Positions 1,134 through 18,411 of a DNA stretch of 20,264 nucleotides are shown here, piece after piece. Origin of the DNA: a virus. The position numbers and the translations under genes are program-made. Below the pieces are notes generated by a model that worked only from the letters and a program-made list of their open reading frames with translations, did not search any database and had not been told where the DNA came from. Each line of letters begins with the position of its first letter. Positions within the stretch are counted from its first letter, which is position 1. Location of the stretch: positions 1-20,264 of the IMG/VR virus record IMGVR_UViG_3300028794_000077; one strand, given 5' to 3'.

Positions 1134-1532
1134 TCACTCCGTCACCGCCCGAAACACCATGTCCGCCACGTGCCCCTTGGCCTTGGCATCCCGGCCAATC
1201 CGGGTGCGCCGGTGAAGCAGGCTGACCAGCGCATGGCCATCAAGCTCGAGATCGGCGTCATCCAACAGCCCCCGCACACGCGCCGCAATCTCCTGCGCCA
1301 GCCGGTTGCCGCCCTCCGCGGCCAGAACCTGCAGGGTCAGCAGATGCTCCTCGCCCGCCTCGCTCGCGGTTGATGCATCCAGGCTCTCGATCGCCGCGAT
1401 GAAGATGCAGGGCCGGTGCGATCGTGTCTGCGCATGGTCATGAATCCCATCGGCCCCGACCATCGCCGTCAATGCGGCATCGCCTGATAGCGCCGCAAAG
1501 ATCGCCTTCTGCAAGGCGCCGGCCGCGCTCAT
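1134..1532 (-). CDS. DUF3168 family tail-completion protein (GTA g8-like)
   Basis: The 132-residue protein matches the DUF3168 pattern: LQKAIFAALSGDAALTAMVG at the N-terminus, then DHAQTRSHRPCIFI, and a central helix rich in Ala and Leu with EIAARVRGLL. In HK97-type phages and RcGTA this position encodes the tail-terminator/completion protein at the head-tail interface. The start at 1532 is chosen because its ATG overlaps the stop of the head-closure gene (ATGA), implying translational coupling; a longer reading to 1556 would intrude into that gene. It is the last head-side gene before the GNAT toxin-antitoxin cassette. Confidence 0.85.
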   Translation of the reverse strand: MSAAGALQKAIFAALSGDAALTAMVGADGIHDHAQTRSHRPCIFIAAIESLDASTASEAGEEHLLTLQVLAAEGGNRLAQEIAARVRGLLDDADLELDGHALVSLLHRRTRIGRDAKAKGHVADMVFRAVTE

Positions 1533-1855
1533 GGCCGTTCCTCCACGCAGCGGCAAACCACATAGCGCCTTGTCTCGTCCGGATCGTAAAAAGCCCGAAC
1601 CGTAAAAATCCGGCCACCCTTGCGAAATCGCATGCCAGCCTCGATATCGTCGCGAAAACGAATCCAGATGCGATGCGTCACGGTGAACACCGCCGCATCC
1701 GCCCGCTCCTCCTTGGCCATGGCAACAGGCTCGATCCGTGCCCAGAGCGATGCGACGGCGACAAATCCCTGGACGATGCCACCCTGGCCGTCGCCGACAT
1801 CGCTGCGCATCTCCAGATCCAGCCGCGCCGACATCTGCCCGGGGTCGAGAATCAT
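1529..1855 (-). CDS. Phage head closure / head-tail adaptor protein (GTA g7-like)
   Basis: The 108-residue protein has the usual features of the SPP1 gp16 / HK97 head-closure family: MILDPGQMSARLDLEMRSD at the start, a VASLWARIEP stretch in the first third, TVTHRIWIRFRDDIEAG in the middle and FTVRAFYDPDETRRYVVC near the end. These proteins seal the head-tail connector after DNA packaging. The ATG at 1855 lies two bases after the connector stop and overlaps on its far side with the DUF3168 gene. A start at 1876 is possible but would overlap the previous gene by 19 bases without better signals. Confidence 0.87.
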   Translation of the reverse strand: MILDPGQMSARLDLEMRSDVGDGQGGIVQGFVAVASLWARIEPVAMAKEERADAAVFTVTHRIWIRFRDDIEAGMRFRKGGRIFTVRAFYDPDETRRYVVCRCVEERP

Positions 1856-1857
1856 GA

Positions 1858-2427
1858 TCAAAGCCCCCGCCGGCAAAACGGCGCGATCAGCCGGTCGTAT
1901 CCGGCCGGCACCGCCGCCGGTTGATCGTTCGGCTGCACCGCGCCGCGGAACTCGTAGAGCAGCGCCAAATGCAACAGCATCGCCCGCTTCAGCGTGTCCG
2001 GCACATCGGCGCCGGTCGCCCCGAAGCCGGCGGAGAAATCGATCTCGATGCCGTTGATCGTCTGCCCCGGAGCCGGTTGCCGCGGCAGGACGAGGCGCGC
2101 TGGCCGCGCCTGCCCGTCAAGCACGAAACCACTCGCATCGACATCGACCGCAATGCCATCGGCATCGTAAACCGTAACCGCTTCAATCGTTTGCACCGGG
2201 CCTCTGCCAATCTGAATCACCCGGGACAAAGGCCAGTCGTCGAGATAAAGCCGAAACGTCCGGGCGAGAAGCGCCAGCCCCGTTTCCCTCTCGATGTGCT
2301 CGCGCACAGTCCGGATCAGCGATGCGATCAGATCATCCTCGCTGCTGGCGTCGATCCGCAGATGCGCCTTCGTCTCGGCAAGCGTCAGCGGCTCGCCAAT
2401 GGGCGATGTCAGTTCGGTGATGGTCAT
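1858..2427 (-). CDS. gp6-like head-tail connector protein (GTA g6-like)
   Basis: The 189-residue protein starts with the family signature: PIGEPLTLAETKAHLRID, then EDDLIASLIRTVREHIERETGLAL, a helix-rich module that forms the ring under the portal. The middle has LPRQPAPGQTINGIEIDFSAGFG and the end GYDRLIAPFCRRGL, typical of the phiE125 gp8/HK97 gp6 group. The ATG at 2427 has GGAGAC seven to eight bases upstream. The frame is open further upstream, but that part crosses a terminator hairpin and has no family similarity. A terminator separates it from the capsid gene. Confidence 0.87.
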   Translation of the reverse strand: MTITELTSPIGEPLTLAETKAHLRIDASSEDDLIASLIRTVREHIERETGLALLARTFRLYLDDWPLSRVIQIGRGPVQTIEAVTVYDADGIAVDVDASGFVLDGQARPARLVLPRQPAPGQTINGIEIDFSAGFGATGADVPDTLKRAMLLHLALLYEFRGAVQPNDQPAAVPAGYDRLIAPFCRRGL

Positions 2428-2450
2428 GAAAGTCTCCGTCGAAGGACAGG

Positions 2451-2490
2451 AAAAACAGGCGGACGCAGCGGGAGGGGAGCTGCGTCCGCC
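2451..2490 (-). terminator. Terminator/attenuator after the major capsid gene
   Basis: Arms GGCGGACGCAGC (2458-2469) and GCTGCGTCCGCC (2479-2490) are perfectly complementary over 12 bp around a 9-base loop. On the minus strand the stem is followed by TG and five T residues. It lies between the capsid stop and the connector start within one gene string, so it probably reduces rather than blocks downstream transcription, giving more capsid than connector. Confidence 0.8.
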
Positions 2491-2563
2491 CTCGCGCGCA
2501 GCGGCAGGGAAGACCGCCGGCGCGAATGGTCGTACCCCTTGAGAAAGGGCTGCCTTACGCTTT

Positions 2564-3832
2564 TCAAGATGCCGCGAATTTGACCAGCTTGATAGCCTCG
2601 AAATTTTGCACTCCCCCGCCGACACGCTTGGTCGTATAAAAGAGCACATAGGGCTTTGCCGAATAGGGATCGCGCAGCACCCGAACCCCGGTGCGGTCGA
2701 CGACGAGATAGCCGGCGGCGAAATTGCCGAAGGCGATTGCCATGCTGCTTGCTGCGATATCCGGCATGTCCTCGGCCTCGGCGATCGGGAAACCCATCAG
2801 CGAAGCCTGCTGGCCGGCGGCGGCCGGCGGATGCCAGAGGTAATTGCCGTCGGCATCCTTGAACTTGCGGATCTCGGCCTGGACCTTGCGGTTCATCACG
2901 AAGGACGCGTTCTGCCGGTGCCCGGCCTTCAGCGCATAGATCGTGTCGATCAGCGTATCGGACGGGCCGCTCGCCTTGAAGGCGCCGGCAGCCCCCGTGG
3001 CGATGTAACCGATATTGCCCCAGCTCCAGGCGCTTTCGGCCACGTTTGTGTAGCTCAAAAACCCCTTCGGCTTGTTGGTGCCGTCGCCGGTGATAAAGGC
3101 CGTGCCCTCCTGCTCGCCAAAGGCGATGTCGACCTCGGAGGCGATCCAGTTCTCGATATCGACAGCCGCGTCGTCGAGCAGTGCGGCCGTTGCCGCCGGC
3201 ATGGCGTAGAGTTCCATGGTCGGAAAGGACAGTTCGGCCAGCTGCGGTGTCGCCGTCTGCGGCCGGGCCGCCGTTTCCGCCACCCAGCCGGTCGCCATAC
3301 CGGCCAGCGCAAACGGCTTTTTCAGCACCGCCCCCGAAACCTGCCGCACGGTTGCCATGGAGCGGATCGGCGAGACCACCGAAAGCCTGCGGCCGATTTC
3401 CGTGTCCGTCTCGTTCGGCACCAGATAGCCGCCGTCGCTGGCCGAACCGATCGAGAATGCCTTGGCTTCCAGTTCGCGCAGCGCCTGCTCGTCGCCCTTG
3501 CGGATATAGTTTTCGAACGCCGCCTTGTGCTCCATCGCCTCAAGGCTTGTCTCGCCGCTGCGCCCCAGCGCTGGCCGCGCCTTCTTCAGCGCCATCTGGT
3601 CGATCAGCCGCTTCTGCTCGTCCATCGTGCGGGTGATGCGGTCCATCTTGTCGCGGGTGACGACATCGGCCGTCAGCTTGCTTTCCAGCTCGCCCAGCCG
3701 CCGGTCGTTGGTTTCCTTGAATGCCTCGAAGGCGCCCATGAAATCCTCGAAGGCGGCGGTCATCGTCTCCGGGGCCGTCTTGATCTCGGGCGCGACCGTG
3801 ATCTCGGGCGCCACACTGTTGCTATCGGTCAT
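2564..3832 (-). CDS. HK97-fold major capsid protein (GTA g5-like)
   Basis: The 422-residue protein has an N-terminal charged, coiled-coil delta domain (AFEAFKETNDRRLGELESK onward, to about residue 100) that acts as internal scaffold and is removed by the prohead protease, followed by the HK97 fold. Recognisable parts are KKARPALG before the cleavage region, FSIGSASDGGYLVPNE, the E-loop/P-domain segment GWVAETAARPQTATPQL, AFITGDGTNKPKGF and the C-terminal FEAIKLVKF. These closely resemble the RcGTA capsid. APEI-type repeats occur in the first 25 residues. The ATG at 3832 has AAGGA seven bases upstream; a GTG one codon earlier is an equally open alternative. The protease gene lies 16 bp upstream. 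Confidence 0.95.
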   Translation of the reverse strand: MTDSNSVAPEITVAPEIKTAPETMTAAFEDFMGAFEAFKETNDRRLGELESKLTADVVTRDKMDRITRTMDEQKRLIDQMALKKARPALGRSGETSLEAMEHKAAFENYIRKGDEQALRELEAKAFSIGSASDGGYLVPNETDTEIGRRLSVVSPIRSMATVRQVSGAVLKKPFALAGMATGWVAETAARPQTATPQLAELSFPTMELYAMPAATAALLDDAAVDIENWIASEVDIAFGEQEGTAFITGDGTNKPKGFLSYTNVAESAWSWGNIGYIATGAAGAFKASGPSDTLIDTIYALKAGHRQNASFVMNRKVQAEIRKFKDADGNYLWHPPAAAGQQASLMGFPIAEAEDMPDIAASSMAIAFGNFAAGYLVVDRTGVRVLRDPYSAKPYVLFYTTKRVGGGVQNFEAIKLVKFAAS

Positions 3833-3848
3833 CACTTTGTCCTTCGTG

Positions 3849-4406
3849 TCAGAGCTTCATCATCCGGGCCGCCCGCCGCATGGCGCGCACGAGCTCCGTT
3901 TCCTTGTCGCGGAAGAACCGCGCATTCTTGACGTTCGAAACCCGCGCCGATGGCAGCATCGGAAAGGTCACGATCGAGATTTCCCAGAGATCGGCTTCAA
4001 GGATGCGGCGCACGCCGGTCTTGCCGTCGGTCCTGGCCTTGACGGTCTGGAAGCCGATTGACAGCCCATCGAGCGCGCCCGCCTTCATCAGCATGTGCAC
4101 TTCCCTGGCCCGCGCCACGCCGGGCGACAAAAGCCCCTCGACGTAAAGTCCACGCGCGTCCTCGCGGATGGTCTTCCAGGCCCCCAGCGGCTCGCCCGGA
4201 TCGTGCTGGAACAGCATGCGCACGCCGCTCGCGCCACGCCGGGCCAGGGACTGCGCAAAGGCGCCGGGCGCGATCGCGTCCTTGCCGAGATCGACCTCGC
4301 CGAAGACACTGGCATAGCCGGAAAAACGCCCCTCGCCGGTCACCCCGGACAGCGTCAGATTGGCAAACTTCTTCGTTCGCCAGACAGGCAAGCTGTCGGT
4401 CGTCAT
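3849..4406 (-). CDS. HK97 family prohead protease (GTA g4-like)
   Basis: The 185-residue protein belongs to the herpes-assemblin-like prohead proteases (PF04586). Visible family features are FSGYASVFGEVDLGKDAIAP at about 28-47, LFQHDPGEPLG with the likely catalytic His68, GALDGLSIGF with the likely nucleophile Ser116, and LWEISIVTFPM with Glu142 completing the usual triad. It cleaves the capsid delta domain during head maturation. The start at 4406 has GGAGAT at good spacing; the frame is open to 4493, but that part is a low-complexity repeat hairpin and is not coding. Confidence 0.93.
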   Translation of the reverse strand: MTTDSLPVWRTKKFANLTLSGVTGEGRFSGYASVFGEVDLGKDAIAPGAFAQSLARRGASGVRMLFQHDPGEPLGAWKTIREDARGLYVEGLLSPGVARAREVHMLMKAGALDGLSIGFQTVKARTDGKTGVRRILEADLWEISIVTFPMLPSARVSNVKNARFFRDKETELVRAMRRAARMMKL

Positions 4407-4434
4407 GGGATATCTCCGAGATTTGGGGGGGAGA

Positions 4435-4517
4435 AATAGCGAGTAGCGAGGTAGCGAAAAGCGCAGAAAGACCACCACTAGAAAACTATTCACTATTCGC
4501 TATTCACTATTCGCTAT
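4435..4517. repeat. Heptad-repeat inverted hairpin between g3.5-like and protease genes
   Basis: The left arm (4435-4457) repeats a unit close to TAGCGAG and the right arm (4486-4517) repeats units close to TATTCGC and TATTCAC. The two arms are imperfect reverse complements of each other, so the RNA can fold into a long hairpin of variable register. It fills the whole gap between the two genes. Similar short-period repeats are, as I recall, frequent between genes of rhizobia. Its function is unknown. Confidence 0.75.
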
Positions 4518-5028: not shown

Positions 5029-5055
5029 GATTGTTTCAAATACCTGAAAACAATC
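5029..5055 (-). terminator. Weak hairpin at the end of the ParE-type toxin gene
   Basis: GATTGTTTCA (5029-5038) pairs with TGAAAACAATC (5045-5055) with one bulged base, and it overlaps the toxin stop codon. There is no T run after it, so it may stabilise the 3' end of the toxin-antitoxin mRNA rather than terminate transcription. Confidence 0.4.
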
Positions 5056-5365: not shown

Positions 5366-5628
5366 CTAGCCGCATCATCCTTGTTCAAAGTCTCCAGTTC
5401 GTCCAGCAAGTCGTCCATATCCTGAAACTTGCCTTGACGCATGCCTTGGCGGGCCTGCTCAATCTCCAGAATGTCTGCTCCTTCGTTGAGGAGATAATAC
5501 CGCATCGCCCGAACCATCACCCAGCTGCGGGATCGTTCCGCCGTCTTGGCAATGGCCTCGATATCGGCCAATACATCCACCGGCACACGCAGCGCGATCG
5601 GATCGGACAGAACAGGCTTGGTCATCAT
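5362..5628 (-). CDS. Ribbon-helix-helix antitoxin (CopG/ParD-like)
   Basis: The 88-residue protein has an RHH domain at the N-terminus (DPIALRVPVDVLADIEAIAK, then AERSRSWVMVRAMRYYL) and a C-terminal acidic helix (MDDLLDELETL) that would bind the toxin. Two adjacent ATG codons (5628 and 5625) can both start it; AAGGA lies just upstream. A perfect palindrome is found immediately before the start, as expected for autoregulation. The pair stands between portal and the small membrane protein, an interruption of the usual GTA head order. Confidence 0.9.
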   Translation of the reverse strand: MMTKPVLSDPIALRVPVDVLADIEAIAKTAERSRSWVMVRAMRYYLLNEGADILEIEQARQGMRQGKFQDMDDLLDELETLNKDDAAR

Positions 5629-5681: not shown

Positions 5682-6833
5682 TCAATAGCCCACCGCCTGC
5701 CGCTTCTCCTCGTCGGTAAGGAAATCCGCCTCCTTCATCCGCGCCCAGACCTCGCTGCGTTCGCCGGTCAGCCCGGTGACCTGGTCGAGATCCGGCACCA
5801 GCTTCAACGTCTCGCCGAACCGCCCCGACAGCCAGCCGGAGAGAGCCGCGGCCGTACGAAAGATCATCGGCAGAACGGTCAGGCGGTAGAAGGCCCGATT
5901 GGCCTCCTGGTAGTTGGCATAGGTGTTGTCGCCGGGAATGCCGATCAGCATCGGCGGCACGCCGAAGGCAAGCGCGATGTCGCGCGCCGCGCCGTTCTTC
6001 GCCTCGACGAAATCCATGTCCTTCGGCGAAAGCCCCATCGCCTTCCAGTCGAGCCCGCCTTCGAGCAGCAGCGGACGGCCTGCCCGCATCGGCCCGGAAT
6101 AGCCCTCGTCCAGCTCCGTCTTAAGCCGGTCGTACTGGTCAGCCGACAGATTGCCGCCCTCCTTCGGCTGATAGACCAGCGCGCCGGAAGGCCGGGCCGA
6201 ATTGTCGAGCAGCGCCTTGTTCCAGGTCGCCGCCGCATTGGAGAGATCGAGCGCCATCTGCGCTGCCGCCAGCGGCGGAAAGCCGAGATGATCGTCGAGC
6301 GGATGAAACAGCCGCAAATGCAAAAGCCCCTCCTCGCCCGCCGTAATACGCCGCACGAGGCTGCCGACCCGGTATTCGTAGGCCTCCGGCCAGCCATCCC
6401 GGCCTTCGAGGATGCGGATGCGGTCCGGCCTGAGCAGATGCAACTCCCGCACCTCGCCGCCGACATCAGCCGCATCGACATAGGCATTGCCCGAGAGCAG
6501 CAGATGACCGTAGAGCGCCTCCAGGAAATCGATGCCCGCCATGCGTCCGTTCGGTCGCGCCAACAACGTCAATAGCGGATGCTCGCTGCGCTCCTCGGTC
6601 CCTTCATAGACAAGCAGCGGCACTGAGGCGGCGGCTTCCGAAATCAGCCGCACCGCCCGGTGCGCCACCGGATTGCGCATGAATCCCTCGCGCGCAAGGG
6701 CCGAATAGGACCGGCCGGTCCAGTGCGCCCGTCCCTCATGCGCAATCGCGATGAAGCCGGAGGCTGCCTTGGTTTCGCGCAAGGTTTCGCTTTCCGCCGG
6801 GCGGCGCCACGGCAGACGGAATGGATTTTTCAT
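5682..6833 (-). CDS. HK97-type phage portal protein (GTA g3-like)
   Basis: The 383-residue protein is a full-length HK97-family portal. Seen in order: GFMRNPVAHRAVRLISEAAASVPL (early clip/wing region), HPLLTLLARPNGRMAG, FLEALYGHLLLSGNAYVD, LHLLRPDRIRILEG, then the helix-rich end with LLLEGGLDWKAMGLSPKDMDF, ALAFGVPPMLIGIPGDNTYANYQEANRAFYR and LVPDLDQV. The dodecameric portal is the DNA channel at the head vertex and binds the terminase. The ATG at 6833 has GAGGA at suitable spacing; an in-frame ATG at 6851 is possible. It is followed after a short gap by the RHH-ParE operator. Confidence 0.95.
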   Translation of the reverse strand: MKNPFRLPWRRPAESETLRETKAASGFIAIAHEGRAHWTGRSYSALAREGFMRNPVAHRAVRLISEAAASVPLLVYEGTEERSEHPLLTLLARPNGRMAGIDFLEALYGHLLLSGNAYVDAADVGGEVRELHLLRPDRIRILEGRDGWPEAYEYRVGSLVRRITAGEEGLLHLRLFHPLDDHLGFPPLAAAQMALDLSNAAATWNKALLDNSARPSGALVYQPKEGGNLSADQYDRLKTELDEGYSGPMRAGRPLLLEGGLDWKAMGLSPKDMDFVEAKNGAARDIALAFGVPPMLIGIPGDNTYANYQEANRAFYRLTVLPMIFRTAAALSGWLSGRFGETLKLVPDLDQVTGLTGERSEVWARMKEADFLTDEEKRQAVGY

Positions 6834-6873
6834 GATGTGCTTTCCTCGCATGCCGCGCCGGCGCGGCTAGAAA

Positions 6874-7521
6874 TCAGCCTGCCTGTTGTTGTCCGCATGC
6901 GTCCGGCGAAGCGGCCCTTATCGCCGCGAGATACCGCTTGCCGTAGCCGGCCACGAGCGCCGCCCTGTCGCGCCCGTTGATGATCCGCCGGGCACCCGTC
7001 CAGTCTTCTCTAGCGGTCGAAAAATAGTCCCCGAGCCTCTTGCCGGTGAAGGCGCCGCTTTCCATGCCCTTGAAGAGAATGTCGACGGCAACGGCGAGCT
7101 CCATCGCCAGCTCCGGACGGGCAACCAGATCGATCCCTGTTACCTTCGTCATCTTTTCGTAGTTCGCCCGATGCGTCAGTTGGACCAGCCCGCGCCCCAG
7201 CCAGCTCTTGCCCTTAGCGTCCCGCCGCCAGTAAGGCACCGACACGGAAGGCAGCCTGCCCCGGCGCAGGGCGGCATCGAGAATGGCGATCGCCCGGTCG
7301 TCGGTCGTCGCCAGGGTTTCGCGCACCGGCTGTATCGTCCGGCCTGTCTCGTGATGCGCGGTCGCCAGCATATAGGCAAGCCAGCGCCTGTCCGCCGTTG
7401 CCGGCATCAGCGCCCAGCGATCGAGAATCGCCGCCATCCCATCGACCTGGCCCTGTGTCAGGATGCCGTCGAAAAGTGATGCACGTACCGCTTTGATGAA
7501 GATTGCCCGATCGAACGTCAT
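6874..7521 (-). CDS. GH19-like lysozyme/endolysin
   Basis: The 215-residue protein has the lysozyme-like fold of glycoside hydrolase family 19. Motifs are LAYMLATAHHETG with the likely catalytic Glu58, WLGRGLVQLTHRANYEK at about 107-123 (the substrate-cleft GRG-x-QLT-x-x-NY motif), and ARRIINGRDRAALVAGYGKRY near the end. Phage members cut peptidoglycan for lysis. There is no signal peptide or membrane segment, so a holin or another export route would be needed. The ATG at 7521 with GGAG seven bases upstream is preferred over a GTG at 7542. It lies between terminase and portal, not a standard position in RcGTA, whose endolysin gene is elsewhere. Confidence 0.85.
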   Translation of the reverse strand: MTFDRAIFIKAVRASLFDGILTQGQVDGMAAILDRWALMPATADRRWLAYMLATAHHETGRTIQPVRETLATTDDRAIAILDAALRRGRLPSVSVPYWRRDAKGKSWLGRGLVQLTHRANYEKMTKVTGIDLVARPELAMELAVAVDILFKGMESGAFTGKRLGDYFSTAREDWTGARRIINGRDRAALVAGYGKRYLAAIRAASPDACGQQQAG

Positions 7522-7566
7522 TCGCGCTCCGCTTCTGTCCACAACACCCGAAAAATGTCGTGACTC

Positions 7567-8363: not shown

Positions 8364-9209
8364 TCAAATCCCCCTGACCCTCGGCTCGCCGCCGCCCTCC
8401 AGCATCAGCGCCGTCAGCGCCCAGACCAGTGCATCCAGCCGGTCCGGCGACCGGCCCGAAGACAATCCGTCCGGTCCGAAATCACACATCTGATCTTCGA
8501 GCGCCGGAAACGATCCCGCATGCACCACCCGCCCCTGCTCGTAGAGTGCCGCAACCGGTTCCGCCCGCAACCATTTTCCGCGTGAAGCCCTCACCGCCGT
8601 TACCGGCAGCTGCGCATCGATACCGCGTAGCACGGCAGAGACCATGTCGCCGCCCTGGTTGACCTCGGCGACGATCCGGTCGGCATCGAACCGCCTGTAG
8701 GCGCGAACCACCGCGTTTGCCCATCCGGCCGGGCTTGCGCCCTCCACCGAACAATCGGCCAGAACCACGCCGCGCGCCGTCCGGTCGAGGCCGGCTACAA
8801 TGATACCACAACAGGATTCTCGGCCCCCGCCGGCGGGCGGGTCGACCGCCACGACGATCCGGCCGAGCGGCCCGGCATCGCGCAGCTTCAGCGCCTCGAT
8901 GCGGGTGCGCGACCACAGCGCGTCCTCGCGATCCTCGATCATCTCGCCATCGAGTTCCTGCCGCCCGAGCCGCGTGCCGCCGTAACGGCCGGCCATCGCG
9001 GAGAGAAATCCCGGCGCCAGGTTTGCCGCATTGTCGCCGGTCCTGATCCGGCATGTCGTCGTGCCGGGATCGGAGATCAGCGCCTTCAGCACAGGCACAG
9101 GCCGCGGCGTCGTCGTCACCAGCGCCCTTGGATTATCACCGAGCCGCAGCGCAAACTGCAGCATGTCCCACGTCTCCTGCCCATGTTTCCATTTACCGAG
9201 TTCGCTGCA
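8364..9209 (-). pseudogene. Large terminase subunit, C-terminal part, gene interrupted (GTA g2-like)
   Basis: The frame encodes the end of a GTA/HK97-type large terminase: ELGKWKHGQETWDMLQFALR, the coupling motif VTTTPRPV, the linker GRQELDGEMIED, and a complete RNase H-like nuclease with acidic residues in VVAVDPPAG, RIVAEVNQGGD and SPDRLDALVWAL. The N-terminal ATPase with Walker A is missing: going upstream the frame reads C-S-E-L-G-K-W and meets a stop at 9210-9212, in the area where Walker B is normally found. The serine recombinase gene begins 70 bp further on. An internal ATG at 9164 could start a nuclease-only fragment, but it would lack the motor. The missing half is not in the window. 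Confidence 0.9.
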
Positions 9210-9234
9210 CTAGTGAATTTCATGCACTTGCAGC
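9204..9234. other. Candidate attachment site (hybrid att) at the terminase/prophage junction
   Basis: The terminase frame breaks at about 9203-9212 and an imperfect inverted repeat lies exactly here: GCTGCACTAGTG (9204-9215) against CACTTGCAGC (9225-9234), with TGAATTTCA (9214-9222) at the centre. Large serine integrases use short, imperfectly symmetric sites next to their own gene, so this is a good candidate for one end of the inserted element. The exact crossover dinucleotide cannot be placed without the other end. Confidence 0.55.
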
Positions 9235-9282
9235 GTTTTTTAACCCCGGCCTGCTATAGGGCTGAGAACACAGAGCAAAACG

Positions 9283-11109
9283 ATGGCTAAAGCAGTGGCA
9301 AGAACCAAAGCATACTCATACGTGCGTATCTCATCAAAAGGACAGATCGAAGGGCGAGGTATTGCACGTCAGTTTGCTGCCGCACAGGAGTATGCGGCAA
9401 AGCACGGTCTCGAACTAGACGAGCAACTGAAGGATGTTGGCAAATCCGGCTTCCGGGGCGATCACGTCAAATTCGGTGCGCTTGGCGGCTTCCTCAGACT
9501 GGTCAAGGATAAGCAGATTCCGGTCGGATCGTATCTGCTGGTTGAATCCCTTGACCGATTGTCTCGCGAAGACGTGCTGATCGCACAGGCGCAGTTCATC
9601 GAAATCCTAAGCGCTGGCATTTCCATCGTCACGCTGATCGACGGGATGCACTACCACAAGGACAAGGACTTCACTCAGTTGATTATCTCGCTCACCTACA
9701 TGAGCAGAGCCAACAATGAATCGCAGGAGAAGTCCAAGCGCATCAAAGACGTTATCCGAAACCGCAAACTCGACGCATTAGCCGGGAAACCCCGTTACAA
9801 TCATCATCTAGCCGGGTGGATCACACAGACGCGGATTGGTGATTCCAAAGATTACGAATTCACCCTGAACGAGAAGGCCAAAGGCGTTCTCCGTGCTTTC
9901 GAATTGTATGATTCCGGTATGGGTGCGTGGTCAGTCGCGAAAGCCCTGAACACAGAGGGCCATCCCGTTTTACGACCCAAGCAGAATGTCGATGCGAAGT
10001 GGAAAGAAGCGCAAGTCCAACTGATGTTGCGGAATGAAATCGTCATCGGGACTTATCAGGCATCGGAAACCATCGACGGCAAGTCGGTTCCGCTTGGTGA
10101 TCCGATCCGCAATTATTATCCCGCTGCTGTCCCTGATGATCTGTTCTGGCGAGTGCAAGCGAAGATCAACAAGCCGAAGCCGGTTGGCCGCTTAGGTCGC
10201 AGATATTCAAATCTGTTTGCCCGCAATACATCATGCAGCGGTTGCGGACGTATCCTGCGATTGAGCAAAGGCGGTGGACCGAACCGGCGTATCTCGTATT
10301 TCTCCTGTATGCAGAAAGCGCTTGTCGATGGTCATCCCTGCTCTGGCAAGTTCTTCCCCTACGACACGCTTGAACATGCGATCCTCACCTATGCAACCGA
10401 CTTCTATGAGGCCGCCGCAACGGAAATGCAGGTTCCCGAAAAGAACAAGCAGAAACTTGAAAAGCAACTGGCCGAGGCGAAAACGTATCTGGCACGCATC
10501 GATAACGAGCGAAAAAACACGCTGGCGATGAGCGGCGAAGATTTGGACCCCGAAGATAAAGCCGAACTACTCAACAACGTTCGTGCATTGCGAACGAAGG
10601 TCGAGCAGCAAAAGGTCTACATCGGGGAATTGGAAGCCCAACTGCTTAATTCGCAGGATAAACGGGATGAATTGAAATCCGTGATGGATCAGATACAGGC
10701 TGAGCGTGCGAAATGGAAAACCGCGCCTGATGATGAAGTCATGCAAAGCCGATCACGCATTTCAGCGATGTTGCGGGAGTTCGTCACAACTGTTGAGGTT
10801 GATTTCGAGGCCCAGGAAGCGATTGTCTGGGTTGGAGGTTATACAAGCGCGTACAAGTTTGACCGAGACGGAAACCTGATCGGGACATTCTTCCTGATGC
10901 CTTCGCTGATGCCGGAATTGTATCCGCATGTTATCGACCGAACACCAAGCGGACGTATTCGGCAAATCCGCAAGGTCAACGAGGATATCGAGCGCAAGCC
11001 GATGACTGACGCTGATATGATCGATTTCATGCAATCGATGGGATGGAAAGCCGACCGCATCGATATGGCTTTGAAGGCCAGCAAGCGTATTCGTGAAGCA
11101 CTGGCTTAA
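9283..11109 (+). CDS. Large serine recombinase (phage integrase)
   Basis: The 608-residue protein has the layout of large serine integrases. The catalytic domain carries YSYVRISSKGQ with the likely nucleophile Ser17, and ESLDRLSRE with active-site arginines near 92 and 95. A recombinase domain (PF07508 type) spans about 190-300, and a zinc ribbon with Cys318, Cys321, Cys342 and Cys353 follows. A charged coiled coil (about 385-490) of the kind that controls integration versus excision follows, then a C-terminal tail. These enzymes join attP and attB to insert phage DNA. The gene lies 70 bp from the broken terminase frame, as expected when attP is beside int. The ribosome-binding site is weak. 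No excisionase (RDF) gene is recognised here. Confidence 0.93.
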   Translation: MAKAVARTKAYSYVRISSKGQIEGRGIARQFAAAQEYAAKHGLELDEQLKDVGKSGFRGDHVKFGALGGFLRLVKDKQIPVGSYLLVESLDRLSREDVLIAQAQFIEILSAGISIVTLIDGMHYHKDKDFTQLIISLTYMSRANNESQEKSKRIKDVIRNRKLDALAGKPRYNHHLAGWITQTRIGDSKDYEFTLNEKAKGVLRAFELYDSGMGAWSVAKALNTEGHPVLRPKQNVDAKWKEAQVQLMLRNEIVIGTYQASETIDGKSVPLGDPIRNYYPAAVPDDLFWRVQAKINKPKPVGRLGRRYSNLFARNTSCSGCGRILRLSKGGGPNRRISYFSCMQKALVDGHPCSGKFFPYDTLEHAILTYATDFYEAAATEMQVPEKNKQKLEKQLAEAKTYLARIDNERKNTLAMSGEDLDPEDKAELLNNVRALRTKVEQQKVYIGELEAQLLNSQDKRDELKSVMDQIQAERAKWKTAPDDEVMQSRSRISAMLREFVTTVEVDFEAQEAIVWVGGYTSAYKFDRDGNLIGTFFLMPSLMPELYPHVIDRTPSGRIRQIRKVNEDIERKPMTDADMIDFMQSMGWKADRIDMALKASKRIREALA

Positions 11110-11120
11110 ATCGCCAGTGC
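11098..11120. terminator. Hairpin at the convergent gene ends, stop codons of both genes in the loop
   Basis: GCACTGGC (11098-11105) and GCCAGTGC (11113-11120) form a perfect 8-bp stem around the 7-base loop TTAAATC. The loop contains the TAA of the recombinase gene (11107-11109) and the TAA of the minus-strand gene (11106-11108). No T run follows in either direction, so termination efficiency is uncertain. Confidence 0.6.
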
Positions 11121-11600
11121 AGTAGCCCACAAATCGTCAACGGCTTCCGCTGACAGCCCAAGCGCTCCCGCAATCACAAGCAAAGCCGGAGCAAGGCGAG
11201 TAAACGAGGTAGCATATTCCCACTCGATTTCCGCTTCGTCTCGTGCCGGTCCCGCTGGCAGCGCATCGATTGCCGAATACACCGCCGCAAGCGAAGTACC
11301 CGAACGAACCAAAGCAAGTCGTAGTTGACGTGGGCTAATCGGTGCAAAGCCTGCACGCTTCTTTTCGATTGTCGGCTCAACAAACGGCACGACATCATGA
11401 TCTTCCGTCGCAAGCCATTCGCGAACTGTCGGAGCAATCCCAAATGTATCTTCGGGACGACTGACGTAATCGCAACGATATCGTTCGCCATTGATATCTG
11501 TGAGTTCTACGTCAACGACAAAAACGTCCGTTTCGCGTGTTGCACGAACTGCAAATACTTCGTGTAGGATTGGTTCTTCAAATGTGTTTTCAATAGTCAT
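11106..11600 (-). CDS. Small phage protein after the tail fibre (possible fibre accessory)
   Basis: The 164-residue protein has two parts. The first about 75 residues form beta-rich sequence with VFVVDVELTDINGERYRCDYVSRPEDTFGIAP. The second half, ISPRQLRLALVRSGTSLAAVYSAIDALPAGPARDEAEIEWEYAT-type sequence ending SAEAVDDLWATA, is an all-helical module often found directly after tail fibre genes in rhizobial and other alphaproteobacterial phages. Its role is not known to me; assembly or chaperoning of the fibre is an inference from position. The ATG at 11600 shares its A with the fibre stop (TAATG) and has GAGGAC upstream. Its stop overlaps that of the convergent integrase gene. Confidence 0.65.
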   Translation of the reverse strand: MTIENTFEEPILHEVFAVRATRETDVFVVDVELTDINGERYRCDYVSRPEDTFGIAPTVREWLATEDHDVVPFVEPTIEKKRAGFAPISPRQLRLALVRSGTSLAAVYSAIDALPAGPARDEAEIEWEYATSFTRLAPALLVIAGALGLSAEAVDDLWATALAI

Positions 11601-13876
11601 TATGCTGTCCTCTGCATCAGGCACCAGTCCGAAATTAGACCACGGCTTCTGTATGTACCGGCCAAATTCGTTCCAGCGTTGCCGTGTGTTGCGTTGATGA
11701 ATCCGTAATCCACGTCATTTCGGGTCGCGCAAGTAAACGATGCGTTCAACGCGGGCGCTGCACCGTCACGATGAACCATAAGTGTTGCGCCGAGCGGATA
11801 AGCCGCATATGTTGCTGATGTACCCGTGTAGACTTCTTCCGCTGTGAAACCCAAAGCGTGCGTGTGCGAAGTTGTCGTTACCGCGTTTGTTGAGGTGTTC
11901 GTGATTGAACCGGGAGTTCCAAGCGTAACCGTGCGAGTTGCAGCAAGTGTTCCACCACCAGTTAGACCGTTGCCGGCTGTAATGCTGGTTACAACACTCG
12001 CTGGCGTGTAACCAATTTCCGCAATCACTCGAGCCGATGTCGTGTTTGCATCAGTCCAGATCAACGAGTTGTTGACGTAGCCGTTCTTGGTGTCCAACTC
12101 GAAACGGAACACTTCACCGAATGTGACATCATCGGTTGAACTGTCGAAGTACACGTTGTTGCCGTTGACACGTAGTCGCGCCGAATATTCACCGCTTGTT
12201 GTATCGATGAGTTTGATTTCAGGCGCAGAGCCCGTCACACGGAGATATCCACCGCTAACGTTGACACCCGTAGTGCTCGATGTTGCAAGTGTGATAGCGC
12301 CGGTTCCTGCGTTGATCGATGCACCAATACCGTTGATGGTAGCGGATGTTAGGACACCGTTATTACGGAACATTATTTCATTGGAGTCCATGATAACGTT
12401 GTTGCTGTTGGTGGCACCAATTTGCAGCGCGTGAAGGGTCGAAACATCGGAGGCATCGCTCGTATTGGTCAAACGAAGCGCACCGGCAGTTAGCGTTGTG
12501 ATGCCATCATATGCCCCAGCAATTCGTGCATTCGGCAAAGTACCGGCGTTCAAGTTGGAAGCGCTCTGATAGAACGATCCCTGCTGACCATCGAGCAAGT
12601 CGGCGTCCAGTGTTGATCCTGCACCGTCATTGCCTGCGGTCCAAATCTTCTGACCCCAGAGTTCACCACGCAAAGCAGCACGATCCAAGTTCAGCGCGTT
12701 TGGTGCCTCAAATGTGCCATCTCCTGCATCGTCCTGCTGGATCGAGAAGACACCACCATTCAGATAAATGCGCCAATCCGATGTATCGTTGGTCTCGATG
12801 AAACTGATGTACGGGCCGGTATTGGAGATTTTCAGATTGCCGGTCGTATCGAAATTTGCGTTGTTTCGGTAAAGGCTTGCAGCCTCGTAACCGTCAACTG
12901 TATCCGCATCCAATGTCGATGACGGACCATCGTTACCGGAGTGCCAGATCGTATTGGTCAGGCCAGTTGAGGCATCGTAAAACTTCAACGTGTTGATGCT
13001 GTTGACGTTGCCGAGAACCAAAGTGTCCCCGGTCACGTCATTGAAGATGCGGAAGCCGTTTGTATCAGAGGTTCCGTCATTGTGCTGAATGTAACCCTGT
13101 CGAGTGCCGTTCTTGTTGAAACTCATGTAGGGATCGCCGGTTACATCACCCGCTGGGGTATCCAAGCGAAGTACGTTAGCCGTGCCCGTCAGCGTCAGAA
13201 CGTTCGTGGCAATCTGTGATGTCAGAGAGCCGCCCGTAGTGTCCGCCGCAAATGTCCATGTGTTTGTGGTGTCGTCGTAGGTAATCTTGTCGTCGTTGGC
13301 GAAGACAATCCCGTTTGCGGCGGAAACCTTCAAAGCACCAGCAAGCGTGATATCGCCGGTTACGCCGAGTGAATCAAAGTTTCCGGCAGTGCCAGTGATT
13401 GAACCAGCCGAAACCAAAGAACCTACGTTCACCGCACCCGAAAATGTCGGGTTTGGAGTGCTGTTGAGCAAGCGGAAACTCGTACCATCATAGGCGACTT
13501 CCTGCGCTTGTCCGACTGCGATTTGACCAGCGGTCAATGCACCACCACCGTCATTGCGGACGATTGGTTTTGCACCCAAACTGTTTACGTTTAGGGTGGT
13601 CGCACCAGTGTTCGCGATATGCGAGAAGAACCGGAATACATCGCCCTTGCGGAGCGCATCCGGCGCAACTGTATAGGCGATTGCCAGCGTGTTTGCGGTG
13701 CCAGTCGATGTTACCCAAACCGCGTTCTTTTCAGCGAGACGACGATTTGCACCCATAATCTGTCGGATAGTCGGTGCAAGTTTGTTCGGCATAGAGCCCG
13801 TAGGCAAGCCATCTGGCGGGGCGTTTGTGTTGCCGGAATCGCTCGGAGTCCAACTATTGCTTAGAATGTCTGCCAT
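11600..13876 (-). CDS. Phage tail fibre protein
   Basis: The 758-residue protein begins with a virion-anchoring region (about 1-140: SGNTNAPPDGLPTGSMPNK, IMGANRRLAEKNAVWVTS, TTLNVNSLGAKPIVRND), followed by repetitive beta-rich shaft. The shaft carries two copies of a unit like WHSGNDGPSSTLDADTVDG, around 12890-12950 and 12585-12640, typical of T7-like and lambdoid side fibres. The end has ITAGNGLTGGGTLAATRT and a SHTHALGFTAEEVYTG segment before a Gly-rich tip ending WCLMQRTA. It would bind the host surface. The ATG at 13876 has AAAGGTGG upstream. The 90-bp gap before it holds a short GGGG/CCCC hairpin but no gene with a start codon. No S74 chaperone is at its own end. Confidence 0.85.
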   Translation of the reverse strand: MADILSNSWTPSDSGNTNAPPDGLPTGSMPNKLAPTIRQIMGANRRLAEKNAVWVTSTGTANTLAIAYTVAPDALRKGDVFRFFSHIANTGATTLNVNSLGAKPIVRNDGGGALTAGQIAVGQAQEVAYDGTSFRLLNSTPNPTFSGAVNVGSLVSAGSITGTAGNFDSLGVTGDITLAGALKVSAANGIVFANDDKITYDDTTNTWTFAADTTGGSLTSQIATNVLTLTGTANVLRLDTPAGDVTGDPYMSFNKNGTRQGYIQHNDGTSDTNGFRIFNDVTGDTLVLGNVNSINTLKFYDASTGLTNTIWHSGNDGPSSTLDADTVDGYEAASLYRNNANFDTTGNLKISNTGPYISFIETNDTSDWRIYLNGGVFSIQQDDAGDGTFEAPNALNLDRAALRGELWGQKIWTAGNDGAGSTLDADLLDGQQGSFYQSASNLNAGTLPNARIAGAYDGITTLTAGALRLTNTSDASDVSTLHALQIGATNSNNVIMDSNEIMFRNNGVLTSATINGIGASINAGTGAITLATSSTTGVNVSGGYLRVTGSAPEIKLIDTTSGEYSARLRVNGNNVYFDSSTDDVTFGEVFRFELDTKNGYVNNSLIWTDANTTSARVIAEIGYTPASVVTSITAGNGLTGGGTLAATRTVTLGTPGSITNTSTNAVTTTSHTHALGFTAEEVYTGTSATYAAYPLGATLMVHRDGAAPALNASFTCATRNDVDYGFINATHGNAGTNLAGTYRSRGLISDWCLMQRTA

Positions 13877-13966: not shown

Positions 13967-15841
13967 TTAGTTTTGGTCCTCTTGGTATCCGATGCTACGT
14001 AGATACTCCCGAATGGCTTCCTGCATTTCAGGGGATTCGCTTGCAGCGATCGCAGAGAGTTTCTGGACGTGTCCGCGCAGACCACCACGCGCAACCTGTG
14101 CCTCTGGAATACCAGCGAGCCAGTTCACGGTCTTCGGATTGCTCAGCAAGCGCGCCTGATATCCACGCGATACGAAGTTAAGTGCCTTGCCACCCATTAC
14201 GGTAGCCGCACCAACTGGACCCGCAAACACGGCACCTAGCAGCGTGTTACGGTCGAACGGGTTCATTTCCGACATTACGGTTTGGTGACTTGCGGTATTG
14301 CTGTGGTTGTTTTTTGCACGATAGGATTTCCATGTGTCCGCGATACGCGCAACACGATCCAAATCACTACGATAGCCAGCACGGCCAGTTCCCTTGAACA
14401 AAACGTCCTTGGCTTCCGGTGCCATCTTGCCCCAATCATTCAGGAATGCAGTCGGGTTATAAGTCTCGGCACCATCGGCACCAACCTTCTTACCCATGCG
14501 CTCGACAACGCTAGCGGTGAGATTATCCCAAGTGGCTTTGCCGTCTTCGGCGCGTTCGACTTGGCGACGGATAAAGTTGAGACGAGTGCCGCCTTCTTTT
14601 GATTTACCCATCGCATAATTGAACACCTCTTCCGGGGCATTTTTGGATAGCACCGCAGCGGGAACAGACTTCTTACCGAAGCCATCGACATTATCGACAT
14701 TGCGACGGAATTGATTATTGGCTTTGCGGAATGCCTGTAGCGCGTCGTCACCAGCGGTCTTTGCAGTGGCTTCCATATCCGAAGTTAGCGACTTGCGAAG
14801 TCCCTCCAGGTATCCCTTTGCAGCGCCATCAAGGTTCGGATCATTTGCGAGCGCACCAATTGCCGTGCGTGCTTCTTTTAGTTTCTCGAAACTGATGCCC
14901 TTATCAACATCAGCGACAATTGCCTTCGCCTGCTGAATTGTCTGGTCAACGAATTGGCCCTTATTCAGTTTCTCAGACGCACCCATCATCTTCTTGGATT
15001 CAGTCAGCGTCTTCAGGTATTGGCGTGTACTGTCACCGGCAGCGGGTGTACCTGTGGTCAACTTGCTGACATCATCATAGAGGTCATTGGACCGACCGAA
15101 TGCAGCATCTTTTGCAGCCTGCATCGATCCCTGAACCATTTCGCCGACTTCCTGCTTTGACGAAGTCTTCGCAGTCGGATTTGTACGAGCAGCAAGGTCA
15201 TCAACAGCACGACCGAACTCGTTACCTTGTGCTTCAAATGTCTGATTGATTCGAGGCTCAATATACTTTTGCCCCGCGCTCGTTGGCCGCAAAGCCTGTT
15301 CCTTCAACGCGGCGCGATTGCTACCGGAAACCATACCAACGGTCGGCTCACTGCCGATTGCACGGAAGTCCTCGACACGCTGACGAATAACAGCGGCATC
15401 ATCAACCGGGCCGATAATTGCCTTCTTGATCGGGTGGAATCCACGAGAACCGGCAAGCAACTGTGGTGCTGCTTTAGGTGTCGGGATTGTCTTTCCGCCG
15501 AGCATACCAAGCGCGAATTCGTTTGCGCGGTCTTTGCCCTCTTCGGAGTTGATATCGACTTCACCCGAATATACCTCACCCGGCAACATGACCATCCGCT
15601 TAATTCCGCCGAGTAAGCCAGCGTTGGAATCGAAACTCTTATTGCCGTCCTTATCCACGGACATTGGCAGAATCATTCCCGTATAGGACTGGTCTTTCGG
15701 TTCTTCTTGAACTTCCTCAACCGGAGCATCAACAGGTGCTTCATCGGACTGCCACTGCATTTCCCAAGGGTTTGCAGGAGTTTCCTGCTTCTTCTCTTCT
15801 TCCGGGGCAGCACCCCAATTCATTTCCCATGGGTTAGCCAT
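13967..15841 (-). CDS. Large internal virion / DNA-ejection-type protein
   Basis: The 624-residue protein is not assigned to a family by clear motif. Its first 35 residues contain the word NPWEM twice (MANPWEMNWG and ANPWEMQWQ), separated by an acidic linker. The middle (about 180-420) is long, charged and helical (coiled-coil-like, with KEQALRPTSAGQKYIEPRI and FRKANNQFRRNVDNVDGFGKK), and near 540 a glycine/alanine stretch (LLGAVFAGPVGAATVMGGKAL) looks membrane-active. Large helical proteins next to a tail lysozyme fit the ejection proteins of short-tailed phages, which form a channel through the envelope. The ATG overlaps the previous stop (TAATG). Confidence 0.55.
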   Translation of the reverse strand: MANPWEMNWGAAPEEEKKQETPANPWEMQWQSDEAPVDAPVEEVQEEPKDQSYTGMILPMSVDKDGNKSFDSNAGLLGGIKRMVMLPGEVYSGEVDINSEEGKDRANEFALGMLGGKTIPTPKAAPQLLAGSRGFHPIKKAIIGPVDDAAVIRQRVEDFRAIGSEPTVGMVSGSNRAALKEQALRPTSAGQKYIEPRINQTFEAQGNEFGRAVDDLAARTNPTAKTSSKQEVGEMVQGSMQAAKDAAFGRSNDLYDDVSKLTTGTPAAGDSTRQYLKTLTESKKMMGASEKLNKGQFVDQTIQQAKAIVADVDKGISFEKLKEARTAIGALANDPNLDGAAKGYLEGLRKSLTSDMEATAKTAGDDALQAFRKANNQFRRNVDNVDGFGKKSVPAAVLSKNAPEEVFNYAMGKSKEGGTRLNFIRRQVERAEDGKATWDNLTASVVERMGKKVGADGAETYNPTAFLNDWGKMAPEAKDVLFKGTGRAGYRSDLDRVARIADTWKSYRAKNNHSNTASHQTVMSEMNPFDRNTLLGAVFAGPVGAATVMGGKALNFVSRGYQARLLSNPKTVNWLAGIPEAQVARGGLRGHVQKLSAIAASESPEMQEAIREYLRSIGYQEDQN

Positions 15842-16839
15842 TATACTCTCCCAATTCCGCCGAGCCCGCCAAGGCCACCGCGTTGGGACATCGCCATAAT
15901 CAATTGGTAAGGCTTCAACATCTGCTTCTTGCGTTCTTCCTCTGCGACCTTCGCGGGGTCCTGCATCAGTTCGACAGGCGCGGTATTTGTGCGGCCGCCT
16001 TTAGGAACAGCCGCGTTCAATGCTGCATCGCTCTCTCCGAACAACTTGGAGATATCACCGAGCATACCAACGGCCTTGTTCGTGCTAACGCCGAGAACCT
16101 TTTCCGGCATTTTCACTTTGCCGCCTGTGGCTTGCTCGATAAATCCACGCGTCGGAACATTGCCGTCTGCGTCTAGGTTCGCTGGCTGCTTTGGCGCACT
16201 GTCAGGATTGATCTTGTTTTGGATGAAACTAAACAGACCATCTTCATAGGGCTTGCCCGCATTTGGGTTAGCGGCATTTGCCGCGTCAACATTGGCTTTA
16301 CCCTGTGCAAGCATCGCGACTTCCTGTGGGGATGACGTTGGACTAGCAGCGGCAATTTCTTCCGGCGACAACCCTGCGACTTCACCAGCCCAAGCCAATC
16401 GATTATCGAAGCCGTGACCGTTCGTGGGATTATCTCGCTTCCATCCCGAAGGACGTTCGTAAGAGATCATCGCGGCGGTTGCGCCGTGAACGTCTTTGGC
16501 TTCCTGTAGTTTGTTCCAAGCATAACGCTCCGAACCTGCTCCCGGTCCTTTTTCGCCGTTCATTTCGTGCATAACGAAATCCAACTGCGTATCTAGGTTG
16601 CCAGTGTTATCACCGGCAAAGGCACGGAAATTGCGAGCGCGATCACCATTCCACTGTCCGATACCGATGGAATCTGAACCATCTGAACCATCACCGGCAT
16701 TACGAGCGCCAGTGTTGAACGTGGATTCCTGCATGAGATTGCCGACAATGCCAGCGGCCTGATATGGTTGAAGTTTGTACTTCTCCATCAAATACCGATA
16801 CGAATATCGGGCATTATCGTTGAGTGCTGGCTTTGCCAA
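15841..16839 (-). CDS. Virion-associated tail lysozyme (PF18013-like)
   Basis: The 332-residue protein has a phage tail lysozyme domain over about 8-155: LQPYQAAGIVGNLMQESTFN with the likely catalytic Glu38, SIGIGQWNGDRARNFRAFAG, LDTQLDFVMHEM, and WNKLQEAKDVHGATAAMISYERP. Such domains bore through peptidoglycan during DNA entry. The remaining half is low-complexity and may anchor it in the virion; its end is rich in glycine. It probably starts at a TTG at 16839: GAGGTGA lies four to five bases upstream, and the next ATG (residue 18) would cut into the domain. A small hairpin (16852-16866) stands just before the ribosome-binding site. Confidence 0.82.
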   Translation of the reverse strand: MAKPALNDNARYSYRYLMEKYKLQPYQAAGIVGNLMQESTFNTGARNAGDGSDGSDSIGIGQWNGDRARNFRAFAGDNTGNLDTQLDFVMHEMNGEKGPGAGSERYAWNKLQEAKDVHGATAAMISYERPSGWKRDNPTNGHGFDNRLAWAGEVAGLSPEEIAAASPTSSPQEVAMLAQGKANVDAANAANPNAGKPYEDGLFSFIQNKINPDSAPKQPANLDADGNVPTRGFIEQATGGKVKMPEKVLGVSTNKAVGMLGDISKLFGESDAALNAAVPKGGRTNTAPVELMQDPAKVAEEERKKQMLKPYQLIMAMSQRGGLGGLGGIGRV

Positions 16840-16893: not shown

Positions 16894-18411
16894 TTAAAGG
16901 ATTGCTTTCCAGTTCTTACGGTCGTTCGGATTGCCACCTTGGAATTCAAAGCCGTTGATGATCTGGCCGCGTGTTGGGGCACCCATATTTACCTGCGGAC
17001 GCTTGCCGAGCATTCCTACGGGCTTGGCCTTATTGAAGTCCTTGAATGCAGCATATGGGTTCGGTAGGTCACGGATTTCCTTATCCGCATCTTGCCATTT
17101 GATTTCGCCCTTCTGCGCACGAGTGGCGATTTCAGCCGCTTTCAGTTTGTTCTCTGCAATAGCCTGCGTGGTTGCGGAAATAACCGCGTTACCCTCTGGC
17201 GAATTACCCAGCGATGGAAGCGAAGCCAAATACTGCTTGGCATCAAAGTCCGATGTCGCACCAGCACCAGCAGGGCGCATCTGCGGAGCGATACGAGCGA
17301 CGATAGCCTTGTAAGCCTGCGCTTCTCCTAGACCTTCAATGTCAACGCCGATTGCTTCCGCATACGGACCAGCCATCGCCTTGAACTCGGCAACTTTACC
17401 AGTGCCGATGTTCTTGCCGAGTTCTGTTAGCATTTCCATGTCAGCGATCATCTGCGGAGCGCTTGCAGCGTTCGCCTGAATTTCGTCAAAGCGCTCTGCT
17501 GCTTTCTCGTCTGCCTTCTTCTGGAAAGCACCACCGTTTTCGCCGCTGCCAACGGTAACATTGTTCTGAGATGCACCCGCACGTTTGTTCTCACGCGACC
17601 ATGAGGTGAAATCGATCGGAGTACGACCGGCGTCTTCTTCCTGCTTGCGATACAGATTGTATTCGGTGATATCCGTGGTCGTTTCAAACGGAGCCTCACC
17701 AGCCTTACGGCCCGATGATTTCGCTGCTTCCTGCGCCTGCAAGCCAGCATTAAAGCCGTTAGCATCACGAAACTGTCCATCAGGTCCAACGCTCATGCCC
17801 TTCTCGGCACCTGCCTGCTGTAGTTTCTGAATCTTGTCCAAAATGGAGTTCGCAGCGGACATTTCGCCTGCTGCCAAATATGCCTGATGCAACTGCTTCA
17901 ACTGACCAATGCTGTAGCCGGTTTCAGGATCGACCGGACCTGACCCAGCGGCTTCGCCCTGCCCTGCGGCTGCTTCTGCTGCTGCCTGTCCTGCAAGGAG
18001 TTTAACGCGATCACCCGAAATCTTATTGTCGGCTAGGCCAATCTCGGAAGCATCCTTGCGATAGTTCTGATAAGCGTCCTGACCTTGTGCGCCGCTCTCA
18101 CCCATGATGGATAGGAATGACTTCGGCATAGCGCTAGGACCACCACCGGCCATCATTGCGAGACTTGCACGCAACAGACCAGCATCGAGCGCTTCACGCT
18201 TTCCGGCGTCGGGCTGCAACTTGTTAAGTAGGCTATTGAAGGGGTTCAGGTTCAACGGAGCGCTATCAGCGGGCTGTCCTTCCGGCGCAGCAACAGGCGC
18301 TCCAAGCAGACCAGCCGGAGCCTGACCCTGTGCGGGTTGCCCCGAAGCAGGATCGCCCTGGCCCTGACCGGTCAAGCGCTTGAGAAGTTCTAGGATATCG
18401 AAATTAGCCAT
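16894..18411 (-). CDS. Putative phage ejection / structural protein
   Basis: The 505-residue protein starts with a Gly/Gln/Pro/Ala-rich linker after MANFDILELLKRL. The middle is helical with LHQAYLAAGEMSAANSILDK and KKADEKAAERFDEIQANAASAP. The stretch around 375-400 contains ARIAPQMRPAGAGATSDFDA followed by SLPSLGNSPEGNAVI, and the C-terminus ends GFEFQGGNPNDRKNWKAIL. The last two patterns recur, as I recall, in internal virion proteins of short-tailed phages. It is encoded directly after the S74-type gene (TAATG overlap) and before the tail lysozyme gene. It has no membrane segment. An exact role cannot be given. Confidence 0.55.
   Translation of the reverse strand: MANFDILELLKRLTGQGQGDPASGQPAQGQAPAGLLGAPVAAPEGQPADSAPLNLNPFNSLLNKLQPDAGKREALDAGLLRASLAMMAGGGPSAMPKSFLSIMGESGAQGQDAYQNYRKDASEIGLADNKISGDRVKLLAGQAAAEAAAGQGEAAGSGPVDPETGYSIGQLKQLHQAYLAAGEMSAANSILDKIQKLQQAGAEKGMSVGPDGQFRDANGFNAGLQAQEAAKSSGRKAGEAPFETTTDITEYNLYRKQEEDAGRTPIDFTSWSRENKRAGASQNNVTVGSGENGGAFQKKADEKAAERFDEIQANAASAPQMIADMEMLTELGKNIGTGKVAEFKAMAGPYAEAIGVDIEGLGEAQAYKAIVARIAPQMRPAGAGATSDFDAKQYLASLPSLGNSPEGNAVISATTQAIAENKLKAAEIATRAQKGEIKWQDADKEIRDLPNPYAAFKDFNKAKPVGMLGKRPQVNMGAPTRGQIINGFEFQGGNPNDRKNWKAIL

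Follow-up and report, generated by a model that had tools for sequence, protein, structure and literature searches.

A Serine-Integrase Prophage in the Terminase Gene of a Rhizobial Gene Transfer Agent, and Recurrent Insertions into GTA Terminase and Capsid Genes

Introduction

The persistence of gene transfer agents (GTAs), and the forces that work against them, have yet to be explained. The locus described here raises one part of this problem: what becomes of a GTA when a prophage borders its broken large terminase gene, and how often are GTA genes interrupted in this way? The window, meaning the whole stretch of DNA that was analysed, is an entire IMG/VR record, 20,264 bases long. A rhizobial GTA head cluster, encoded on the minus strand, takes up the left 9.2 kb, and the remaining 11 kb on the right belong to a prophage, with the G+C content passing from about 0.64 to about 0.52 across the boundary. 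The far end of the record, at 20264, falls inside the prophage.

Listeria phage A118 encodes a large serine integrase with an attB inside comK and a 2-bp core, and the gene is rebuilt on excision (PMC3556126). For prophages that disrupt competence genes (e.g., comYC and ssbB in pneumococcus), the proposed explanation is an arms race in which chromosomal curing is at stake, in a study that names GTAs only as another recombination-dependent exchange route (PMC12637031). In Citromicrobium, Mu-like prophages insert into competitor prophages and were reported to be neutral toward GTA-like genes (PMC12486242). In the open-access full-text literature on GTAs, prophages, competence, comK, and serine integrases, integration of a prophage or island into a GTA gene was nowhere described, an absence which is not proof, and open-access papers on RcGTA-like clusters gave no description of their interruption by a mobile element.

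The Terminase Gene and Its Junction with the Prophage

The C-terminal part of the GTA large terminase gene (terL; 8364..9209, minus strand) lacks a start and is cut in Walker B. Its frame is open from 8367 to 9209 (281 amino acids, beginning CSELGKWKHGQETWDMLQF...), with a TAG just before it at 9210-9212, in agreement with a preliminary description of a frame that is clean to C-S-E-L-G-K-W (about 9209) and then stops. The product covers the whole of the Terminase_6C profile and only the last half of Terminase_6N, and it is 93–94% identical to intact relatives, which read ...FDYAWCDELGKWKHGQETWDMLQF at this point and continue upstream through Walker A. Where this frame begins with C-S-E-L-G-K-W, the Walker B region reads A-W-[CA]-D-E-[LVI]-[GA]-K-W in the twenty closest relatives that were examined. 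The Walker B D-E has become S-E in the window, and all sequence upstream of S-E is foreign.

The putative crossover core, at the junction of host and prophage, is the GA at 9202..9203 (minus strand), the first two bases of the Walker B Glu codon. This is the sole dinucleotide common to both junctions in three relatives with the same insertion (genomes G038, G039, and G278, described below), and it is present in the window. The adjoining stretch at 9204..9282, to which no strand is assigned, comprises the prophage arm of the attachment site and the integrase leader; it is without similarity to the terL of relatives and ends at the integrase start.

The integrase gene itself (9283..11109, plus strand) thus adjoins the attachment site, about 80 bp from the junction, and is directed away from terL. 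It encodes a large serine integrase with Resolvase and Recombinase domains (PF00239, PF07508; PHROG 95 integrase), and a zinc-ribbon (PF13408) scores just under the cut-off. Beyond it, all on the minus strand, are a phage protein gene that adjoins the tail fibre gene and has relatives in Sinorhizobium phages (11106..11624; PHROG 6034, tblastn), the tail fibre gene (11600..13876; PHROG 21249 tail), and a gene for a large virion protein (13967..15841; PHROG 36512), a putative injection protein with a weak match to the RHph_Y1_10 putative injection protein and with homologues in the capsid-site prophages discussed below. These are followed by a tail lysozyme domain protein (15841..16839; PF18013), a virion protein conserved in related prophages (16894..18411; homologues in C013, G337, and G100), and a DNA ejection or S74 chaperone-tailed virion protein that runs off the record (18411..20264; PF13884, PHROG 4287). 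The earlier statements that a large serine recombinase adjoins the break and that foreign late genes lie beyond it were therefore correct, the latter being evident from the tail fibre, tail lysozyme, and S74/ejection-type genes and from the drop in G+C. A megablast search of the window prophage against sequenced phages found no DNA-level relatives.

On the other side of the junction, the interrupted cluster has the RcGTA-type order of terL, portal, protease, capsid, and connectors. A GH19/endolysin-like gene, syntenic in relatives, is located between terL and the portal (6874..7542, minus strand; marginal PF00182 match). The portal gene (5682..6851, minus strand; PF04860) is 95% identical to L003, and it is followed on the same strand by the genes for the head maturation protease (3849..4493; PHROG 80) and the major capsid protein (2564..3835; PHROG 10). 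The capsid gene is intact in the window; the same gene is split in G337, G100, C013, and G426. Head-tail connector genes downstream of the capsid gene (1134..2649, minus strand) are syntenic with 54–63 of 80 GTA loci. Two pairs of small genes lie within the cluster as well. One, at 178-966, consists of a GNAT-like protein gene and a DUF1778-like antitoxin partner (putative, named from sequence), the GNAT gene having relatives in C011 and four other rhizobial loci. The other, at 5054-5628 between portal and protease, looks like a RelE-like toxin/antitoxin pair and diverges more between relatives than the neighbouring GTA genes do.

Insertions at the Same Codon in Related Genomes

A scan of GTDB with the terL fragment yielded 80 best loci. 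Two of these, L111 (from Metarhizobium album) and L126 (from Mycoplana azooxidifex), have a terL that starts only at the same residue as in the window and lies beside an integrase with 47–50% identity to that of the window. Among Rhizobiaceae genomes, the Walker B codon is occupied in three others, whose integrases are 43–50% identical to the window's and in each of which both terL halves are present. In G038 (M. album), a single 844-kb contig carries both parts, the N-terminal one 11.5 kb upstream of the other; in G039 (M. azooxidifex), it is found near a contig end; and in G278, the third case, the insert is 7.1 kb. Joining the halves at GA gives one uninterrupted full-length terL frame in all three genomes. 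More broadly, rejoining restores a full-length terL or capsid frame in each of the nine elements for which both ends are available. The preliminary description had placed the ATPase half past the far end of the prophage, and this is where it lies in the relatives with the same insertion (or at a contig end); the single frame that it expected on joining is likewise obtained. Uninterrupted terL genes are common in the family, since 306 of 395 Rhizobiaceae genomes have a terL match and most of these are full length. No prophage-free genome with a terL starting at the window's codon was seen among the relatives.

These genomes also bear on whether the junction could unite two unrelated pieces of DNA in a chimeric assembly. 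The window is an IMG/VR record without its far end, which would allow such an artefact. However, the same codon, the same kind of junction, and a related integrase alongside recur in three other assemblies, in one of them within the 844-kb contig. We therefore exclude chance and chimerism, and regard an assembly artefact as hardly conceivable.

The attP sites were reconstructed and their arms found by an arm search, an ungapped palindrome count being uninformative. In G038 and G039, the reconstructed attP has inverted repeats centred exactly on GA. Arms are near-centred in C013 and G100, none are clear in G278 and G337, and the window record holds only half of an attP.

The terL-site elements of G278 (L224:10893-14840; 7.1 kb) and G038 (L186:2223-10037; 11.4 kb) contain no phage virion genes that could be recognised. 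A flagellin-like gene, confirmed by Pfam in G278, is present in both, together with a small invertase/resolvase. Integrases of this type therefore move flagellin-bearing islands as well.

Insertions at Other Sites in the GTA Cluster

The preliminary description considered a single prophage. The insertion that it proposed is real, and the single case understates a recurrent pattern. Three related prophages of 38–39 kb, in G337, G100, and C013 (an IMG/VR contig, L086-L088), split the GTA capsid gene at two sites, and another capsid insertion, in G426, is cut off by a contig end. In G337, the site is the K-R codons of TTKRVGG; in C013 and G100, it is the Y-V codons a few residues before K-R. The capsid frames are restored once the halves are rejoined. 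Several virion genes of the window prophage have homologues in these three inserts. The G100 prophage encodes an SU10-type portal, a major head protein, and a scaffold. Its own terminase (L226:4623-6055) is in two overlapping frames, and this prophage may therefore be frameshifted or defective.

Unrelated elements with tyrosine integrases cut terL near its 3′ end in G434, G140, and G045 and in the IMG/VR contigs C011 and C047. The cut falls in the last tenth of the gene, at the sequenced junctions roughly 38 codons from its end, and the junctions of G434, G140, and G045 have a common 8-bp core, ATGTG(C/T)GA. A tyrosine integrase is encoded near the right junction in G434, with a similar ORF there in G140. 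Tyrosine-integrase elements often restore the target end at tRNA or gene ends. Here, the replacement terL tails (e.g., LEDQMC-ESIAIPKSATFPERYVLQ) are without resemblance to the native end, and the conserved DRLDALVWA region is therefore lost. This region is present in 70 of 80 loci, and we take it to contain a catalytic Asp of the RNase H-like nuclease.

Three further loci were not counted as insertions of these kinds. In G276, terL is broken at a different point, near residue 174, with insertion-like sequence after the break and the other side at a contig end. In contig C077 (L089-L091), the GTA portal is truncated by foreign DNA at about residue 227, and the far end lies outside the contig. 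L080 has multiple protease matches, which resemble additional protease-like fragments more than they do a clean insertion.

Relatives of the Integrase and Their Target Sites

Integrases were compared across 395 Rhizobiaceae genomes, sampled as one genome per species. Each of the four integrases closest to that of the window lies in a GTA gene: terL in three cases and the capsid gene in the fourth (G337). A more distant relative, that of G100, is also in the capsid gene. A GTA cluster makes up only about 15 kb of a 5 Mb genome. Apart from G100, the 25 other integrase loci examined have no GTA gene within the roughly 1.5 kb of flank checked for non-GTA integrases. The relatives surfaced only in this search of Rhizobiaceae genomes: close relatives of the window integrase were found neither in IMG/VR nor, by peptide patterns, in GTDB genomes, and elsewhere in the class, 385 genomes gave four distant matches, none of them adjoining GTA genes.

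In a maximum-likelihood tree of 33 integrases, those of the window, G038, G039, and G278, all at terL, form a clade (support 99/95), which is joined by the capsid K-R integrase of G337 at 100/100. Within this clade, then, there has been at least one change of target from one GTA gene to another. A separate clade (100/100) unites the capsid Y-V integrases and includes the remnant L215. Because this clade holds a remnant at a non-GTA gene and sister lineages lie elsewhere, GTA targeting is not universal. The L215 remnant is of the capsid Y-V type, has one in-frame stop, and stands beside a putative haloacid-dehalogenase-like gene (named from sequence), at what is possibly a secondary attachment site.

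Altogether, recombinases of two superfamilies use four sites, with serine integrases at terL Walker B, capsid K-R, and capsid Y-V and tyrosine integrases at the nuclease end of terL. An element breaks terL or the capsid gene in at least 9 of the 395 genomes (G038, G039, G278, G434, G140, G045, G100, G337, and G426).

These sites might be no more than convenient landing pads. Integrases favour conserved coding sequence that can be lost, and GTA genes fit this description, being widespread and conserved but not needed for growth. The GTA would still be inactivated, as a side effect without advantage. In line with this, terL is matched in 306 and the capsid gene is present in 287 of the 395 genomes, the sites lie in strongly conserved motifs, and the flagellin-carrying islands, which are not phages, use the same terL codon. 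On the other hand, a single integrase clade has switched its site from one GTA gene to another, terL is also struck by an unrelated type of recombinase, and the tyrosine elements do not restore the terL end. That recombinases of two types strike the one cluster at several sites speaks against a neutral landing pad, which we consider a serious possibility that falls somewhat short of an even chance.

State of the Interrupted GTA Clusters

The insertions would also be meaningless if they were tolerated in clusters that were already dead. Some clusters do show decay. That of G039 has several lesions, including a stop in the portal gene and a GTA_TIM gene split by another element, and G426 has a terL frame break in addition to its capsid insertion. 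In C013, there is one stop in the GH19-like gene. Elsewhere, GTA head genes other than the split one are complete and free of stops in G038, G278, G337, and C011, and also in G100 as far as its sequence extends. The GTA_TIM hallmark (PF13547), a TIM-barrel gene of the tail hub, was found in 12 of the 13 genomes or records tested, the window record ending before its position. The RcGTA-like head gene order is conserved in most family members, under purifying selection, and the dN/dS of 0.05–0.28 between the window head genes and those of relatives suggests that selection was not relaxed before the insertion. The split genes, moreover, rejoin as perfect frames. Prior decay of the GTA is thus an unlikely account of these insertions.

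The element that splits the GTA_TIM gene of G039 is about 32 kb long and lies on contig C8 (L248:2059 to L249:14948). It resembles a Tn7/Tn5053-type transposon with cargo, having terminal repeats CTACCCTTGTGAA... and a TniQ-like protein (assigned by eye).

Discussion

Insertion occurs precisely at specific codons, and the intact terL or capsid frame is lost and can be restored in sequence. Very probably, the locus is best explained by a phage serine integrase with its attB in Walker B of the host GTA terL, with the GTA inactivated and the gene rebuilt on excision. A temperate podovirus-like phage would encode the integrase, and its chromosomal attB would be the Walker B Asp-Glu codon pair. Integration in the window cuts terL at the Glu codon and leaves the start-less C-terminal part. 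Related phages use the two other sites, in the capsid gene, and unrelated tyrosine elements the nuclease end of terL. Judged from sequence, inactivation of the GTA gene by a reversible insertion is well supported. A lysogen would fail to produce GTA particles for two reasons: its terminase or capsid is broken, and the element stands between the downstream GTA genes and any promoter ahead of terL. Precise excision would be expected to rebuild the split gene. We strongly infer that GTA packaging would be off in the lysogen and would return on excision.

The preliminary description further suggested that the phage disables, or controls, the GTA. Of the two, disabling is supported, and control goes beyond the evidence. 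In its fullest form, control would mean a regulatory switch like the active lysogeny at Listeria comK, in which temporary excision under GTA-inducing conditions, followed by re-entry, would time GTA production. The att sites are indeed precise and frame-restoring, and A118 in comK is a comparable case of a serine integrase whose target is a gene for DNA exchange (PMC3556126). Against this, no directionality factor was identified, and such a switch seems improbable.

Under the preferred reading of GTA inactivation, the element might benefit in two ways. The host may be spared lysis during GTA production, or there may be less GTA-borne replacement of the element, as proposed for the competence-gene prophages. 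Repeated insertions across rhizobia by related and unrelated elements suggest the silencing of a DNA-exchange machine, and we lean slightly toward the view that the targets were selected because GTA silencing benefits the element. On a broader proposal we are evenly divided: that the integrases of several phage and island lineages, unrelated to one another, evolved to target essential GTA genes so as to shut and perhaps conditionally reopen GTAs.

The findings resemble several known systems and differ from each. Like A118, the window element is a serine-integrase prophage with its attB in a DNA-exchange gene, but the target of A118 is a competence regulator in a Gram-positive host, whereas here it is a GTA structural gene, with several sites and recombinase types. 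As with the competence-gene prophages, mobile elements break host DNA-exchange genes, in this case by breaking a terL or capsid frame that is restorable. However, competence systems act in the recipient cell, and GTAs act in the donor. What the element gains may therefore be the survival of its host, and not resistance to curing. The Citromicrobium Mu-like prophages also disable other phage-like elements in the same genome, but they do so by transposition, in contrast to the site-specific integration into GTA genes described here. Finally, the clusters share with the RcGTA-like clusters of Alphaproteobacteria the RcGTA-type gene order and, in relatives, the GTA_TIM hallmark, and differ in being interrupted by a mobile element.

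If this explanation is true, repeated, site-specific, and sequence-reversible inactivation would indicate that these elements suffer harm or competition from GTAs, and the conflict between prophages and competence would extend to a second DNA-exchange system. The work also yields integrases with mapped target sites, and the elements would be natural knock-outs, with a built-in route of reversion, for testing rhizobial GTAs.
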